Source of the DNA: Peribolospora baueri
Lineage: Eukaryota; Basidiomycota; Peribolosporomycetes; Peribolosporales; Peribolosporaceae
Length of the DNA stretch: 64,000 bases
NCBI GenBank assembly: GCA_029717555.1
Contig: JAMDHS010000080.1
Location: forward strand, 27,709-91,708
Reading direction: 5' to 3'
The position numbers and the translations under genes were made by a program. Below are positions 3,788-63,993 of the stretch, piece after piece. Every line of letters begins with the position of its first letter. Position 1 is the first letter of the stretch. Below the pieces are notes generated by a model. That model searched no databases and had not been told where the DNA came from. It worked only from the letters and a program-made list of their open reading frames with translations.

Positions 3788-6700
3788 CTAGGCCGCACCG
3801 CCGCCGGCGGCAGCGGCAGCGGCGGCAGCAGCGACGGCCGGCCCGCCCTCCTCCGACCCCATGGCGCGCTGCAAGCCGAGGTCGACGACGTCCAACCACC
3901 TCATCAGCTCGTCTACCGCCCGCGACAGCTCGTTGTGCACATCTTCAGCGCTGACCAGTTCAGAGTAATCCAACGGACGTAAGCGCGGGCCGTTCGGGAA
4001 CAGGCCCGTCCCCATCGACGCCCCTCCTCCTGCTCCGGCTCCCGCCCCCGCTCCAGCTGCTGAAAGCGGCGCTGCTGCCGACGCCGAGGACGCCGCTGCG
4101 GAAGAGGCACCGCCGACCAACGCTGGAGCGGTTGTGGGACCGGAGCTTGGCGGGGTCGCATGCGGCGTTATGGAGCCATTCGTAAAGGGGCCTTGTCGGG
4201 TTGTAGGACTCGACGTCGTCGCGCTTCCGCCTCCGCCAACGCCCGAGGAAGCTAGTGGCGTAGAACCCGCGTCTAGCGTCTGCGCCTGAGCCATGGGGTC
4301 CAGCCCTCCCCCTCCTCCCAAGCCGTTCACCGACTCTATCTGCTCCGGTAACGTCGACGAGGGCGTGTGTGATTGCGCAAGAGGGGATGGAGACGGCACG
4401 CCTGGTGAGCCATGCGGGAAATGAAAGCGCGTCCCCCCAGACGCGGCCGGAGATGGCGGCAGGAGGTCGTTCTTCGCCAAGTCTGGCATGGGCGCTGAGA
4501 GCTGCTTTCGAAAGTGCATAAATTACGATGACGTTCTCGTCAGCTTGTAGTCCTAGGTCCTTGTCTAGGCGTACCCCTACGCGCAGAAAAGAACGAACAG
4601 GGAGAGTAACGTGAAAAGACGACGCCACTAGGCTCACCTTCAAAACATCCTTGAGACCCAGACCCGCTTGCGCCGGAAGCGGCCGAGGCTTCAAGCCCAC
4701 CGTGTCCACGCTCTGGCCGCTCCTGCTTCCGCTCCTGCTCCTGCTCATGCTGATAGGCATTGGCGTCCGCGAGGCGGGGGAGGGCAAAGGCGTTCCTCCA
4801 CTACCACCGCCGCCGCTGCCGCCACTACCACCACCACTACCGCTTCCGCCCACTACAGATGTGCTCGACGAGACAGTCGCGCCCGAAACAGACATACCCG
4901 AAAAGCTAGCAGCCGGAGAGTGTCCGGTGCTCGACGAGCCGCTCCTAGAGTAATCCGAGAGCGGTACGCCCAGTGAGCTCGCGCCCAGATTGGAGCTGGC
5001 GGCGGCAGAAGAGGTGGAAGCGAGCGTGGGAAGATAGTCGCCCCCAGAGCCCATGGCCGTGTTGGCGCGCATCATCTTGGGCGTGGCCGACCTGTCCGTC
5101 GCCGTTGCAGAACGTACAGTGTTCGTGCTACTCGCAGGCGGTTCAGGGGGGAAAACGAAGTTTCGAGCACCAGTGCGGCCGACGGTTGCATCAAAGCTAC
5201 GGTCCGGTGTCGTCGTGCTACTGGCAGGTGCGCTCGGAGGCGGCGGCGGAAACTGGAAATTGCGGGCAGCGGCCTTGCCGACCGTGGCATCGACGTCGAT
5301 CTGCGTTGGGGCCGCCGAAGCCTTGCTTCCGACGGCCATGTCGAACTCTCGGTCTGGAGTGTTCGTGTTGCTAACAGGCGTGCTAGGAGATGGGGGCGGA
5401 AACTGGTTTCCGACAGTGGTGTCCATGTCGATCTGCGCCAAAGGAGGGGACGCCGGCGGTGCGTCTGGCATTTGGAACCCTCGAGCAGCTGCCTTTCCGA
5501 CGGTGGCGTCCATGTCGATCTGTGCCAAAGGGGGCGACGTCGGCCGTGCGTCCGGCATTTGCAGACCCAACCCTTGACTTTGAACTCGACTCCAGTCAGG
5601 TAGGTCGCTGGGGACGGCTGCGGTGTTGACATCGTCGAACAGCCGGAGCAGAGGATGATCGCGCAGCGGTCCATTAGTCGCCGTGGGTGGTTCTGAACCT
5701 ACGTCCTCCTCGTCCTCGTCTGCCAAGAAATCGTTTCGAAGGGTGTTGAATACCCAGCCATCGTCTGTTTCCTTTCCGTCCAGCGCAAAAGAATCTCGGT
5801 TACTCCCTTCCCCGAGCCCAGCGCCGACAAGGCTCATTCGCATCCCGCCCTGCTTTGTCCAAGTGCTTAATCTGGTGATCAACTCCTTCAGCACCGACGT
5901 CGACGTCTTGGACGAAGCTTTGATCCACTTGGTCTTCGCCAGTTCATCCGCGTTGAGACGCTGCGACGATTAGATGAAACACACTTCAGCGGCGCTCGGG
6001 CTTCATACCGCGCAAGCCAACCAATGGAGAGAAAAGACTCACGTCCTTGGGTTCTTCCTCCAAGCAGGCGGCCGCAAAATCTCGCATTCCCTGGCTCCAG
6101 ACCAGCGTCTCACTATTTTCTTCCCGCTTTTCCGGAAGCCGTGGTGGCTTTTGGCGCGGGATTGTCCAGATGGCTTTCATCTGTTCCATTTCCGCCAATG
6201 GCGGATTGCCCATGGCGATCTCATATAGCGTTATGCCCAAGCTCCAGATGTCCGCGGATTGGTCATATGTCCGTCCGTCTTGGATAACCTCCGGAGCCAT
6301 CCAGTAGGGTGTGCCCACAAAGGTCGAGCGCTTGGAATGAACAGATGAGGAAGACAGCGTGGCGGCCACACCGAAGTCGCAGAGCAGGACTCTGCCAGTT
6401 TGCGTCACGAGGACATTCGCCGCTGGGAGGAAGAAGGCGAAGTATGCAAAAAATCAGAAGATGAGCAGTATGACGATCCCCCGTGGGACCGCGTCTCACC
6501 TTTGATGTCGCGGTGAATGATATTAGACTTGTGTAGGTAGCTCAACGCTACAAGCACCTCCCGCATAATCACGACCATGTACTTCTCCGCGATGGGACCA
6601 GCTTTCATCTACAAGGAGAATAATGATGACAATCGGAACGAGCAGGGAAAGCATTCAACACTAAGGTGAATCGCTCGCTCCATCGACACGTCTGCTCACC

Positions 6701-56856: not shown

Positions 56857-59621
56857 ATGGTAGATCCGGCGCCCTCCACTTCTGCAGAGCTCGCTATGGC
56901 GGCTCCCGCTGCGGCTGTGCCCGTCTTCGACGAGTCGGCCCTGACCGACTCGGAAGCGTCCGATTCGGAGACCCCACCTTTCTCCTCCCGCAAGGCCTCC
57001 AGGCGCCTCTCGTCTTCTGTTCAAGCTCGCTATGGGCGCAAGGCTTCGAGAAGCGCGACCGTCGAGGAGGTTGTGCGGCTCAACAAGGGCGCCGACGAAA
57101 CGGAAGGAGCGGAAGCCCTTCGCGAAAAGCTCCGCGAGCAGCTGTTGCAAGACGACCAGCCTTCGTCGTCGGCCGCCTCTTCCTCGGGCGGCGGGCGTCG
57201 TAGGAGCAGCGCCGCCTCTCGCGCAGCGTCCGCCGTCGCTCGCCGGCTGTCCAAATCGAGCGGACAGCCCGGCTATGGAGTCGAGCGCGAGGACGTGGTA
57301 AGGGCGTTATCGCTTTCGCCCTCGCCCATCCACAGCGAGGGCATGCGAAGGAGAGAGAGCAGCGGCGTCATGGGTGTGGACAGCCAACCATCGGGACTGT
57401 CGCAGCGCACCACACACTCGTCCTTGGCCTTGAATGTCCAGAGCCAAGGGGAGCTCGAGAACGACGGCCGCCGTTCTCCCTCGCCGATGCCGGACGACCA
57501 GACCAGCGGGAGCGCCAGTGGGCTCGCGCCCGCCCTCGTCGCCCCTTCAGCTCCTCAGCGCACGCACACCTCCACGCTCCCGCACCTCTCTTACGACACC
57601 GGCCACCATCCGCTCTCTGTCACGTCGATGACAACGAGTTCCGTGGCACCCACCATCACCGCCGCCGAACAGCCCCTCACTACCGCCTACTTTGGCGTTT
57701 TCACCCCTATCGTCGAGTCACCGCCTTTCACGACCCCGTCGACGCCCACTGCCGGCCCGTCTGACCCCCGCGCGAACCTCGCCAGCTACTTTCCCGCTAT
57801 GGACGACCCCTCGTCCAAGAGCGTCAGCAGCGGCACGGAAGGCAAGAACAGGTTCTCTTCTTCGTCGCACGCTTACCCACCCTCGCTCGCGCGCGTCCCT
57901 TCGTCGGCTTCCGCTTCGAGGGCGCCAAACAGACTTCCGTCGCTCCATGAGCCGGATCCTGCGGTCACGGAAAGGGAGGGAGATGGGAAACAGACGGGAA
58001 GGCTGGGAAGTCGGAAGGGTGTCGCGCTCATGATTGTCACCGGTACTGCGCAGGTGAGCGCCTAGAAGGGGGGGGTGAAGAAGAAGGACGAGGCGTGAAA
58101 AGCAAGCTGGAAGATTTGCTTATCGCTTGCACTGCACGACCGCGTGCTTAATCCGTCGCGATCCGCGGCCTCTTCCTTCGGACGTCCTCTTCGGTGACAT
58201 TTCCCTCGCTCTAGATGCTTGACAATATTCTCCTCACTTCGGTCAACATTGCTCTCCCCGCCATCTGTAAAGAACTGAACATCGCGCAAGCCGACACTTC
58301 ATGGCTGATGTCCGCGTATGCCTTAGCCTTCGTGAGTGGTGATCGTCTGCCAGCTTGACGCTCTCGCTCCCCTTCTGATCCTGTCTCCCTCATCTGCTCT
58401 CCCACGCGCATACATAGGGTAAGCACATAAGAGGAAGATTTTGCGGTTTTTTTTTTTTTTTTTTTTTTTTTTTTCTTTCTTTCTTTCTTTCTTATTTTCT
58501 GTACGTTCCGCCGTTTCTCAACGACGACCGACCGTTTTTGTTTTCGCTCCGCGCAGGCGGCTTCTTGCTCCTCGCTGGCGTGCTCAGCGACCGGTACGGG
58601 AGAAAGAGGATCTTCGAACTCGGCATGGCTTGGTTGACTCTTTGGACTTTGGGTGAGATGTCGCCGGCGCAGCTCCACCGCTGCGGCGGAGCACCCGCGA
58701 ACGATAGGTCCAGGTTGGCTCACAAATACGTTTCCTCGTCGGTCCGAAACGCCATCGCATGCCTTGCCTTCGTTTCGGATGTACGCCCACAGCTGTCTCT
58801 TTTGCGCCCAACGAAGTCTCTGTTATCCTATTCCGCGCCATGCAAGGCCTTGGTGCGGCGGCTACTGTCCCTTCGGCCGTGGGCATCATCTCTGCCTTCT
58901 TCGTCGGCAAAGACCGCAACACGGCGCTCTGTTATTTCGGAGCTTTTGGTGCGGTTGGCTTCTCTGCCGGTGAGTACACACGCATCTTTGACCTCTGTTC
59001 AGGAGAAGACAATGCTGACGCTACCTCGCATGCTCTTCCTTTTTCTTTCTTTTGACATTGATTGACCAGGCCTCATCTTCGGCGGCATCGTCACCTCCTT
59101 CCTCTCTTGGCGCTACATCTTCCGCCTTTCCGCCGTGCTCACCGGCTTGACCGGCATAGCCGGCCAGTTCGTCCTGCCCACCGACAAACAGGGTGAAGGC
59201 CCTAAGCCGGCACTTGATTTCCTCGGCGCCGGCCTCGGCACTGGTGGCCTTGTCCTCTTGGTGTTTTGTCTATCGTCTGGGGGAGTCTACGGATGGGGCA
59301 AAGTGAGCAGATCTGTTCACCGCTTTGGGAGATCGGGCCAGGAAGATCGCCTACGCTCTGACATGTTTCTCCCCCCTTCGTACTGCGTCGCTTCACAGGC
59401 TTTCCTCATCGTCCTCCTCGTCCTTTCCGTCCTGGTCCTGTTCGCCTTCACTTTAGCAGAGAAAAAGGTGAAGAATCCGATCATGCCTCTCAGCCTGTGG
59501 AAGGCTCCCAACTTTGCCGTCGCCTGGGTCTGCGGCCTGCTCTTGTACACCTGGGTGAGTCTCTTATGTCACAACGCGATCTCGGTGCGCGTCCGTGTCT
59601 GACGCCCTTCGGTTGTCACCG

Positions 59622-59662
<41 letters not shown>

Positions 59663-60576
59663 TCCCTTTGGAAAGTGGCAAGCGGAGGTCTATTACATGG
59701 TTCTGATGGCCCAGAATGTCTATCGACTGAGCGCGATCGAGACAGCACTGCGCTTCCTCCCCATGGGCGTCATATCGTTCCCCATCTGCGTGAGCGGGGC
59801 GTGGTTCTTCGAACGCTTCCAGCTCAAGAAACTCATGTAAGCGTCACAGGAGCCACTCACACGGCATAGCCATCCACTCACGCACTCACTCCACTCCCCC
59901 CCGACGCGACGTTGTAGCATATTTGGCATGATCGGCTGCGTCCTCGCGCCCGTCCCCGCGGCCGTCATGCACGTTGGGGACAACTTTTGGTCGCACCTGT
60001 GGATCACATCGATCATAGGAGTCATCTTCATCTCCTTCTCCTACGCGTGCATCAATCTCGCTCTCGTCAGCAGCGTGCCGCCCTCGGCCAAGGGTCTCGC
60101 CGGCGGACTAGCCAACACGGCCTACCAGCTCGGTTCGGGGGTGAGTGGCTCCTTCAGTCGAGGCCGGCGCTTTTGAGAATGGACAACACGGCGACGGCTC
60201 TTGCTTCGAACGCGCTGATGGACCGTGTCTGTCGTCCTCGGCCGCCGCCGCCGCCCCCGTTTTCCAGATCGGTCTCGCCGTCACCGCAGCCGTCCAGCAG
60301 GGCGTCTCCAAGAAGCTAACGGGCGATCCGACTTCGGTGTACAACTTGTCAGTCCCGACGGTGCACTCCTTCTGTCTACCTCGGTCTGTCCCTTTTCTTC
60401 TTGCTCATCCATCCATCCCTCCTCTCTCCGCCTCTCCCATCCCATCCCATCACAGACTGCAAGAATACAAGGCGTGTCTTTGGACTACTAGCGGCATGGC
60501 CGGCGTCGGAGTTGTCCTCGTTGTCCTGTTCTTGAAAGAAATCGCTCCCGTACCGGGCGCCGTCACCACGCACTGA
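56857..60576 (+). CDS. MFS transporter (DHA2-type, 14-TM drug/proton antiporter-like) with long N-terminal extension
   Basis: Major-facilitator exporter. Exons 56857-58053, 58215-58331, 58418 (1 nt, proposed), 58557-58652, 58793-58969, 59070-59302, 59399-59554, 59676-59836, 59918-60140, 60268-60347, 60456-60576 give 853 aa. Residues 1-385 are a Ser/Pro-rich, probably cytoplasmic N-terminus (many RRxS sites), rare in MFS proteins. The transporter begins KGVALMIVTGTAQMLDNILL, continues LLTSVNIALPAICKEL and WLMSAYALAF, then motif A GVLSDRYGRKR, then RAMQGLGAAATVPSAVG. The central and C-terminal parts include SWRYIFRLSAVLTG, FLPMGVISFPICVSG and GLAGGLANTAYQLGSG (motif-C-like DHA2 signature). Frame between the second and third coding segments closes only with an added single G; see findings. 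Introns carry a long T tract and an (AT)n run. Substrate unknown. Confidence 0.92.
58447..58493 (+). repeat. T28 tract followed by (CTTT)n in an MFS intron
   Basis: 28 consecutive T followed by CTTT repeats, about 60-110 nt before the acceptor at 58556. It works as an extended polypyrimidine tract and is prone to length change. Confidence 0.9.
59624..59660 (+). repeat. (AT)n dinucleotide run in an MFS intron
   Basis: About 18 AT units directly followed by TTTTTCCCTTTGGAAAG, the acceptor of the exon starting at 59676. Confidence 0.9.

Positions 60577-63962: not shown

Positions 63963-63993
<31 letters not shown>

Follow-up and report, generated by a model that had tools for sequence, protein, structure and literature searches.

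How can a transporter gene be intact when two of its exons, joined at their own evident splice sites, are one base short of a continuous reading frame? The gene that raises this question lies in a window of 64,000 nucleotides (the whole stretch of DNA that was analysed), which is part of contig C157 in the assembly of Peribolospora baueri (22.1 Mb, 178 contigs). It occupies about 56896-60576 of the window (+ strand) and encodes an MFS transporter which, judged by its sequence, is DHA2-like (a relative of EmrB, EfpA and QacA). Exon 2 ends with SAYALAF at 58331, where TTC/GTGAGT places a donor at 58332 (slashes mark exon borders), and the next long exon, preceded by CGCAG, opens with GC GGC TTC TTG at 58557. 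Joined directly, the two are shifted in frame and give ALAFAASCSSLACSATG..., then a stop. A preliminary description of this DNA had pointed to this donor and to the CAG before 58557, both of which are present in the sequence, and had argued that the direct join breaks the frame and needs one extra base, which translation and comparison with relatives bear out. It had proposed that this base is the G at 58418, itself an exon, between a TAG ending at 58417 and a GTAAGC at 58419. These elements too are where they were said to be, and they would divide the 225-nt interval into introns of 86 and 138 nt, as claimed.

The base in question lies in ACATAG/G/GTAAGC (58412-58424). When it is added, the joint reads ALAFGGFLLLAGVLSDRYGRKR; as the lone base between CATAG and GTAAGC it gives AFGGFLLLAGVLSDRYGRKR, and the protein reads AFGGFLLLAG across the joint. 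No AG-N-GT other than that at 58416-58420 occurs within the interval 58332-58556. Hence, an AG and a GT stand one base apart in an interval that is otherwise removed, and the base between them is needed for the frame and yields the residue expected from relatives, as should be the case for a single-nucleotide exon. Two other donors would restore the frame with a single intron. The preliminary description had rightly seen that AGTG/GTGATC would insert Val-Ser (the product reads AFVSGGF, with two more residues in helix 2), but it placed this donor at 58336, whereas it lies at 58339. The donor that does lie at 58336 would give AFVSGF, one residue more in the same helix. The resemblance to a recursive splice site that had also been put forward holds as far as sequential removal goes, but not in the strict form, since the sequence is AG/G/GT and not AG/GT. 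A zero-length recursive splice site has AG and GT directly juxtaposed, and the base between them here excludes it.

Table 1. Features of the MFS transporter gene, in window coordinates
Feature	Coordinates	Strand	Description
Exon 1	56896-58053	+	Start codon from mechanical gene call; donor GTGAGC at 58054
Exon 2	58215-58331	+	MLDNILL...SAYALAF; TM1 and start of TM2; from translation
Intron A	58332-58417	+	86 nt, GTGAGT...CATAG
Rival donor	58339-58344	+	GTGATC; would insert Val-Ser
Other rival donor	58336	+	GTGGTG; would insert one residue
Proposed single-nucleotide exon	58418	+	G, first base of glycine codon G/GC; basis: frame and FGGF motif
Intron B	58419-58556	+	138 nt, GTAAGC...CGCAG
Assembly letters at acceptor and start of exon 4	58552-58561		CGCAGGCGGC
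Exon 4	58557-58652	+	(G)GC GGC TTC TTG CTC ...; remainder of TM2 and motif A
Exons 5-7	58793-58969, 59070-59302, 59399-59554	+	In frame by translation
Exons 8-10	59676-59836, 59918-60140, 60268-60347	+	In frame by translation
Last exon	60456 to stop at 60574-60576	+	In frame by translation

Read with the single-nucleotide exon, the gene has eleven exons, that one included, and all are in frame up to the stop codon in a translation that begins 20 codons before the end of exon 1; the frame of exon 1 itself was taken from the mechanical gene call. The structure was read from one assembly. If the called start is right, exon 1 encodes an N-terminal extension of about 386 residues before TM1, which by eye is rich in Ser and Pro. 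Besides the remainder of TM2, exon 4 encodes motif A of the MFS. The region also contains low-complexity tracts, which easily suffer sequencing errors and changes in length: 28 T in a row at 58447-58474, within intron B and followed there by CTTT-type repeats, a run of 25 T at 63963-63987, and a TA microsatellite at about 59624-59659, within another intron of the gene.

Two paralogues in the same genome allow a comparison at this position. In the paralogue on contig C89 an intron interrupts the gene at the same codon, and its exon end and donor (TTC/GTGAGTT) match those of the window gene. This intron is 174 nt long, in phase 0, and is followed by CCGCAG/GGA TGC TTC, i.e. by a complete glycine codon on the downstream side. 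The paralogue on C105 has no intron at the TM2 position and reads LTNGCFLLLAG. The single-nucleotide exon is absent from both. One intron position is thus found in three states within one genome: without intron (C105), in phase 0 (C89) and in the two-intron form of the window gene. No orthologue of the intron from another species was found, in a search that covered viral contigs and gave no relative there, with a query that had VCAFAP in place of AVSFAP at one later intron. In the alignment that gave the identities to the paralogues and the patterns of the bacterial search (both below), the first residues of the C89 protein, upstream of SIGRD, are in the wrong frame; the patterns were drawn from later columns.

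Relatives outside the genome give the same length across the joint. The best 80 of 238 bacterial relatives have FGGF and no gap in query positions 34-58 (80/80), an agreement that is partly built in because 76 of these 80 loci matched the selecting pattern, which lies over the joint and allows [FN]G[CG]F; the other four did not match it and agree nevertheless. Against the same loci an insertion from the 58336 donor costs 6-7 bits and one from the 58339 donor 5-6 bits, in 80 of 80 cases. The nearest solved structures, at 125 bits, are those of EfpA, a mycobacterial efflux protein; the four alignments shown among 30 PDB hits are all to EfpA and pass ungapped through the joint as LTFGGLMLLGG. The Pfam family MFS_1 (cut-off 33.4) scores the protein with the single-nucleotide exon at 162.2 bits and the insertion models at 157.9 (58336) and 156.9 (58339), i.e. 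4.3 and 5.3 bits worse, all three models carrying the same few wrong residues (VCAFAP for AVSFAP and KLM for KLI). The best curated bacterial family is TIGR00711, of the EmrB subfamily, where the protein obtains 159.5 bits for a cut-off of 230.2; it is a relative, not a certified member, of this subfamily. All three comparisons, with the C89 paralogue, with the C105 paralogue and with the outside relatives, say that one base is missing where exons 2 and 4 are joined directly.

Over the N-terminal half of the protein (58215-59220), identity to the five best actinobacterial loci (L033-L037) amounts to 43-44%. This is slightly above the identity to its own paralogues, for which the alignment, by a different measure, gives 40% (C89) and 39% (C105). 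An old transfer would fit this as well as strong conservation.

We scored the splice sites with donor and acceptor profiles trained on 69 predicted introns from 130 kb of DNA of the same genome. These came from a home-made gene finder that never called the MFS gene as multi-exon and served for the profiles only; some of the 69 introns may be false. The donor at 58332 is strong (7.05 bits, 75th percentile of the 69) and the acceptor at 58556 is average (3.8 bits, 54th percentile). The inner sites of the proposed pair of introns are poorer: the donor at 58419 has 2.7 bits (23rd percentile) and the acceptor at 58417 is weak (-2.1 bits, 3rd percentile). This acceptor counts against the proposal of the preliminary description, which stands as the best single reading, backed by the paralogue and by the bacterial and PDB relatives. 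An accepted intron of the same gene (59837-59917) has the donor found at 58419, GTAAGC, and an acceptor, TTGTAG, that scores -5.5, below the -2.1 at 58417; the acceptor of the equivalent intron in the C89 paralogue scores -2.15. The two rival donors reach 1.0 bits (58339, 10th percentile) and -7.2 bits (58336, below all 69).

Lengths and branch points add to this picture. The eight other introns of the gene measure 81-161 nt, a range within which introns A and B both fall, and a single intron of 225 nt would be the longest of the gene. Such a length is not outlandish, since 7 of the 69 predicted introns (median 100 nt) exceed 200 nt. A CTSAY motif occurs 12-60 nt before the end in 46 of 77 introns (the 69 predicted ones and eight of the MFS gene), for a baseline of 18.6% at 5000 random positions of the window; the median distance of all such motifs to the intron end is 38, counted one higher than the distances that follow. 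Intron A has two branch-point-like motifs, CTGAT and CTCAT, in which the A lies 39 and 25 nt, respectively, from the 3' end of the intron. Intron B has no CTSAY motif, the nearest sequences being CTCAA at 36 nt and CTTAT at 62 nt before its end. We also searched for other microexons between the donor at 58332 and the acceptor at 58556, with introns of at least 45 nt and no stop. Among the 11 solutions the single-nucleotide exon is the shortest. The 8-nt and 14-nt candidates break the frame; two others, of 22 and 28 nt, preserve it, but add seven and nine residues before GGF and have a donor of -6.9 bits; the six further ones, of 67-83 nt, are mostly poly-Phe and have poor acceptors.

How often would an arrangement like AG/G/GTAAGC be found by chance? 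Among 3000 dinucleotide shuffles, 0.07% contain an AG-G-GT that equals or exceeds the site at 58418 in each of its two splice-site scores, and 0.17% one with a summed score as good, for 1.2% with any AGGGT and 15.7% with any AGNGT. Counting both strands, the 130 kb of own-genome DNA contain 223 AGGGT and 769 AGNGT; 5 of the AGGGT sites are as good by both scores and 9 by the summed score, the site at 58418 being included in either count. Per 135 usable positions, this corresponds to expectations of 0.0026 (both scores), 0.0047 (sum), 0.12 (AGGGT) and 0.40 (AGNGT). A G exon flanked by sites of this quality is thus expected by chance with a probability of about 0.0007 to 0.005. Inside the 69 predicted introns there are seven AGGGT, none of which is as good as the site at 58418. 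The longer motif YAGGGTRAGY is not enriched genome-wide on the two strands (407 occurrences, 458 for the reversed control; a density of about 0.001 per 135 positions), so AG/G/GTAAGC is either a local coincidence or a local function, and not one of a widespread class.

Taken together, these observations make it fairly probable that the gene is intact and that exon 2 would be joined onward through a constitutive single-nucleotide exon, the G at 58418. We favour this reading because every rival leaves AG/G/GTAAGC an accident; the weights that we give to the four readings considered are a judgement and not a computation. The splice signals tell a different story. When these and the lengths are all that is scored, the best model is the single intron 58332-58556, at -6.4 bits, which breaks the frame and cannot yield a transporter. 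The single intron from 58339 obtains -12.3 bits, the two-intron model -16.6 and the single intron from 58336 -20.6. That the two-intron model scores below the one from 58339 is a fair count against the single-nucleotide exon, and GTGATC donors do occur in 2 of the 69 predicted introns. Yet, splicing from 58339 would leave idle a donor that is 6 bits stronger, lies 7 nt upstream and is common to the paralogue, and we disfavour it for this reason. The one or two TM2 residues added from 58336 or 58339 would also break up the stretch before FLLLAG, lowering the bacterial and Pfam scores, and AG/G/GTAAGC would be left as a coincidence. Hence, we regard a single intron from either of these donors as improbable.

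If the best-scoring splice sites are indeed joined, the missing base must be accounted for in the DNA. An error of sequencing or assembly could have removed it, the true genome having a full glycine codon and, before it, a single phase-0 intron of some 225 nt. This is precisely the structure of the C89 paralogue. The site is a short G run where a slip of one base would be enough, the interval also holds the run of 28 T, and a search of the genome gave one copy of the locus (and a self-match of the TA repeat), so there is no second copy to serve as a check. Such an error would nevertheless have had to hit one of very few bases, in a gene whose other exons are in frame, and to coincide with the independent chance presence of AG/G/GTAAGC (0.0007-0.005), which leads us to consider it unlikely, if well worth keeping in mind. 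A frameshift-allowing run of the gene finder placed four frameshifts in the window, all in two genes at its left end; three of the four fall in a gene earlier predicted with more introns, and no error rate was drawn from them. The base may also have been truly deleted, making the gene a null allele or a recent pseudogene with a frameshifted main product, as direct joining of the strongest donor and acceptor would produce a frameshift and a stop. The other exons are in frame in spite of this, AG/G/GTAAGC would again be a coincidence, and there seems to be little chance that this is the explanation.

Under the reading with a single-nucleotide exon, the spliceosome would remove two ordinary introns, of 86 and 138 nt, by intron definition. 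With a single base between them, the acceptor of intron A and the donor of intron B could hardly be bound together, and the two introns would be excised sequentially. We lean slightly towards intron A leaving first, because it has the stronger donor and branch-point-like motifs, is nearer the usual length and is transcribed first, whereas data from plants point to the opposite order. Help may also come from the run of 28 T, whose first base lies 28 nt beyond the weak 58419 donor. Skipping of the single base would result in a frameshift and an early stop. As for its history, the window gene might have lost a G where the downstream exon begins, and the cryptic AG/G/GTAAGC of the old intron might then have been recruited to replace it.

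Among the known systems closest to this gene is CYP621A of Fusarium, which a publication of February 2026 described as the first single-nucleotide exon in fungi (PMC12940212). Nelson and Syed propose there that a base lost at an intron border can be replaced by a cryptic intronic AGGGT, with G as the preferred base since it fits the acceptor as well as the donor (PMC12940212). The window gene, one G short at this place, fits this rescue proposal, and the older intron state is kept in the C89 paralogue. Both cases are fungal, have AG/G/GT, complete with the single base a glycine codon in a conserved motif, have a relative lacking the split that gives the expected length, and show a combined interval longer than usual introns (PMC12940212). 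They differ in gene family and in the place of the base, central in the codon in CYP621A and first in the MFS gene; moreover, the CYP621A exon is backed by 18 RNA reads from two species and occurs in 24 genes, whereas ours is predicted in one gene, from genome sequence (PMC12940212).

In plants, APC11 of Arabidopsis has a constitutive single-nucleotide exon needed for the frame, for which sequential intron removal has been proposed; its base is an A, and it was demonstrated by cDNA and reporter constructs, whereas the G of the MFS gene is read from sequence (PMC4674806). APC11 was the precedent named in the preliminary description, and it is a valid one but not the sole one, given VPS55 in plants (PMC8831610) and CYP621A (PMC12940212). 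VPS55 of land plants has a 1-nt exon with a donor GTRAGT and, as here, copies with and without the exon, one clade of flowering-plant copies having it and the other lacking it; its exon is kept across land plants with RNA support, and the exon-less copy is ascribed to intron retention (PMC8831610). For plant microexons in general, reads indicate sequential removal, more often with the downstream intron first, and T-rich motifs are enriched nearby and linked to TIA1-like proteins (PMC8831610). The one-base exon of placozoan cox1 is mitochondrial and involves trans-splicing introns, not the nuclear spliceosome (PMC5436844). Fungal stwintrons resemble the proposed structure of the MFS gene in having two introns at a single position, excised in turn, and a putative multidrug efflux pump gene is reported to contain a [D1,2]/[A2,3] stwintron; the MFS introns, unlike stwintrons, each have their own complete ends, and one exonic base stays in the predicted mRNA (PMC5639578, PMC6616335). 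By its definition a [D1,2] stwintron is ruled out here, the interval starting with GTGAGT after TTC and not with GG (PMC5639578). Abutting introns are mentioned in this literature (PMC6616335), and so is a single-nucleotide intron shift (PMC5587772, as discussed in PMC5639578).

An exon of one nucleotide is the smallest that the spliceosome can define. The literature searched gave three nuclear families, APC11, VPS55 and CYP621A, one of them fungal, and the mitochondrial case of Placozoa. If the mRNA confirms it, the MFS gene would be a further single-nucleotide exon, in a different gene family. One might speculate that it evolved independently, in a fungus perhaps not belonging to the group of the known case, and that it is seen shortly after it arose, the deletion of one base at an old phase-0 acceptor having been rescued by the cryptic intronic AG/G/GTAAGC; the balance between inclusion and skipping could then set the level of the transporter, because skipping gives a frameshift. 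We put this forward tentatively, as a rather unlikely scenario. Once confirmed, the single-nucleotide exon of this gene, with the older intron state retained in a paralogue of the same genome, would speak for an origin of such exons in the rescue of one-base losses at splice junctions, and for AG/G/GT as a favoured form, G suiting both splice sites. Apparent frameshifts at fungal intron borders would then not need to be errors or pseudogenes.
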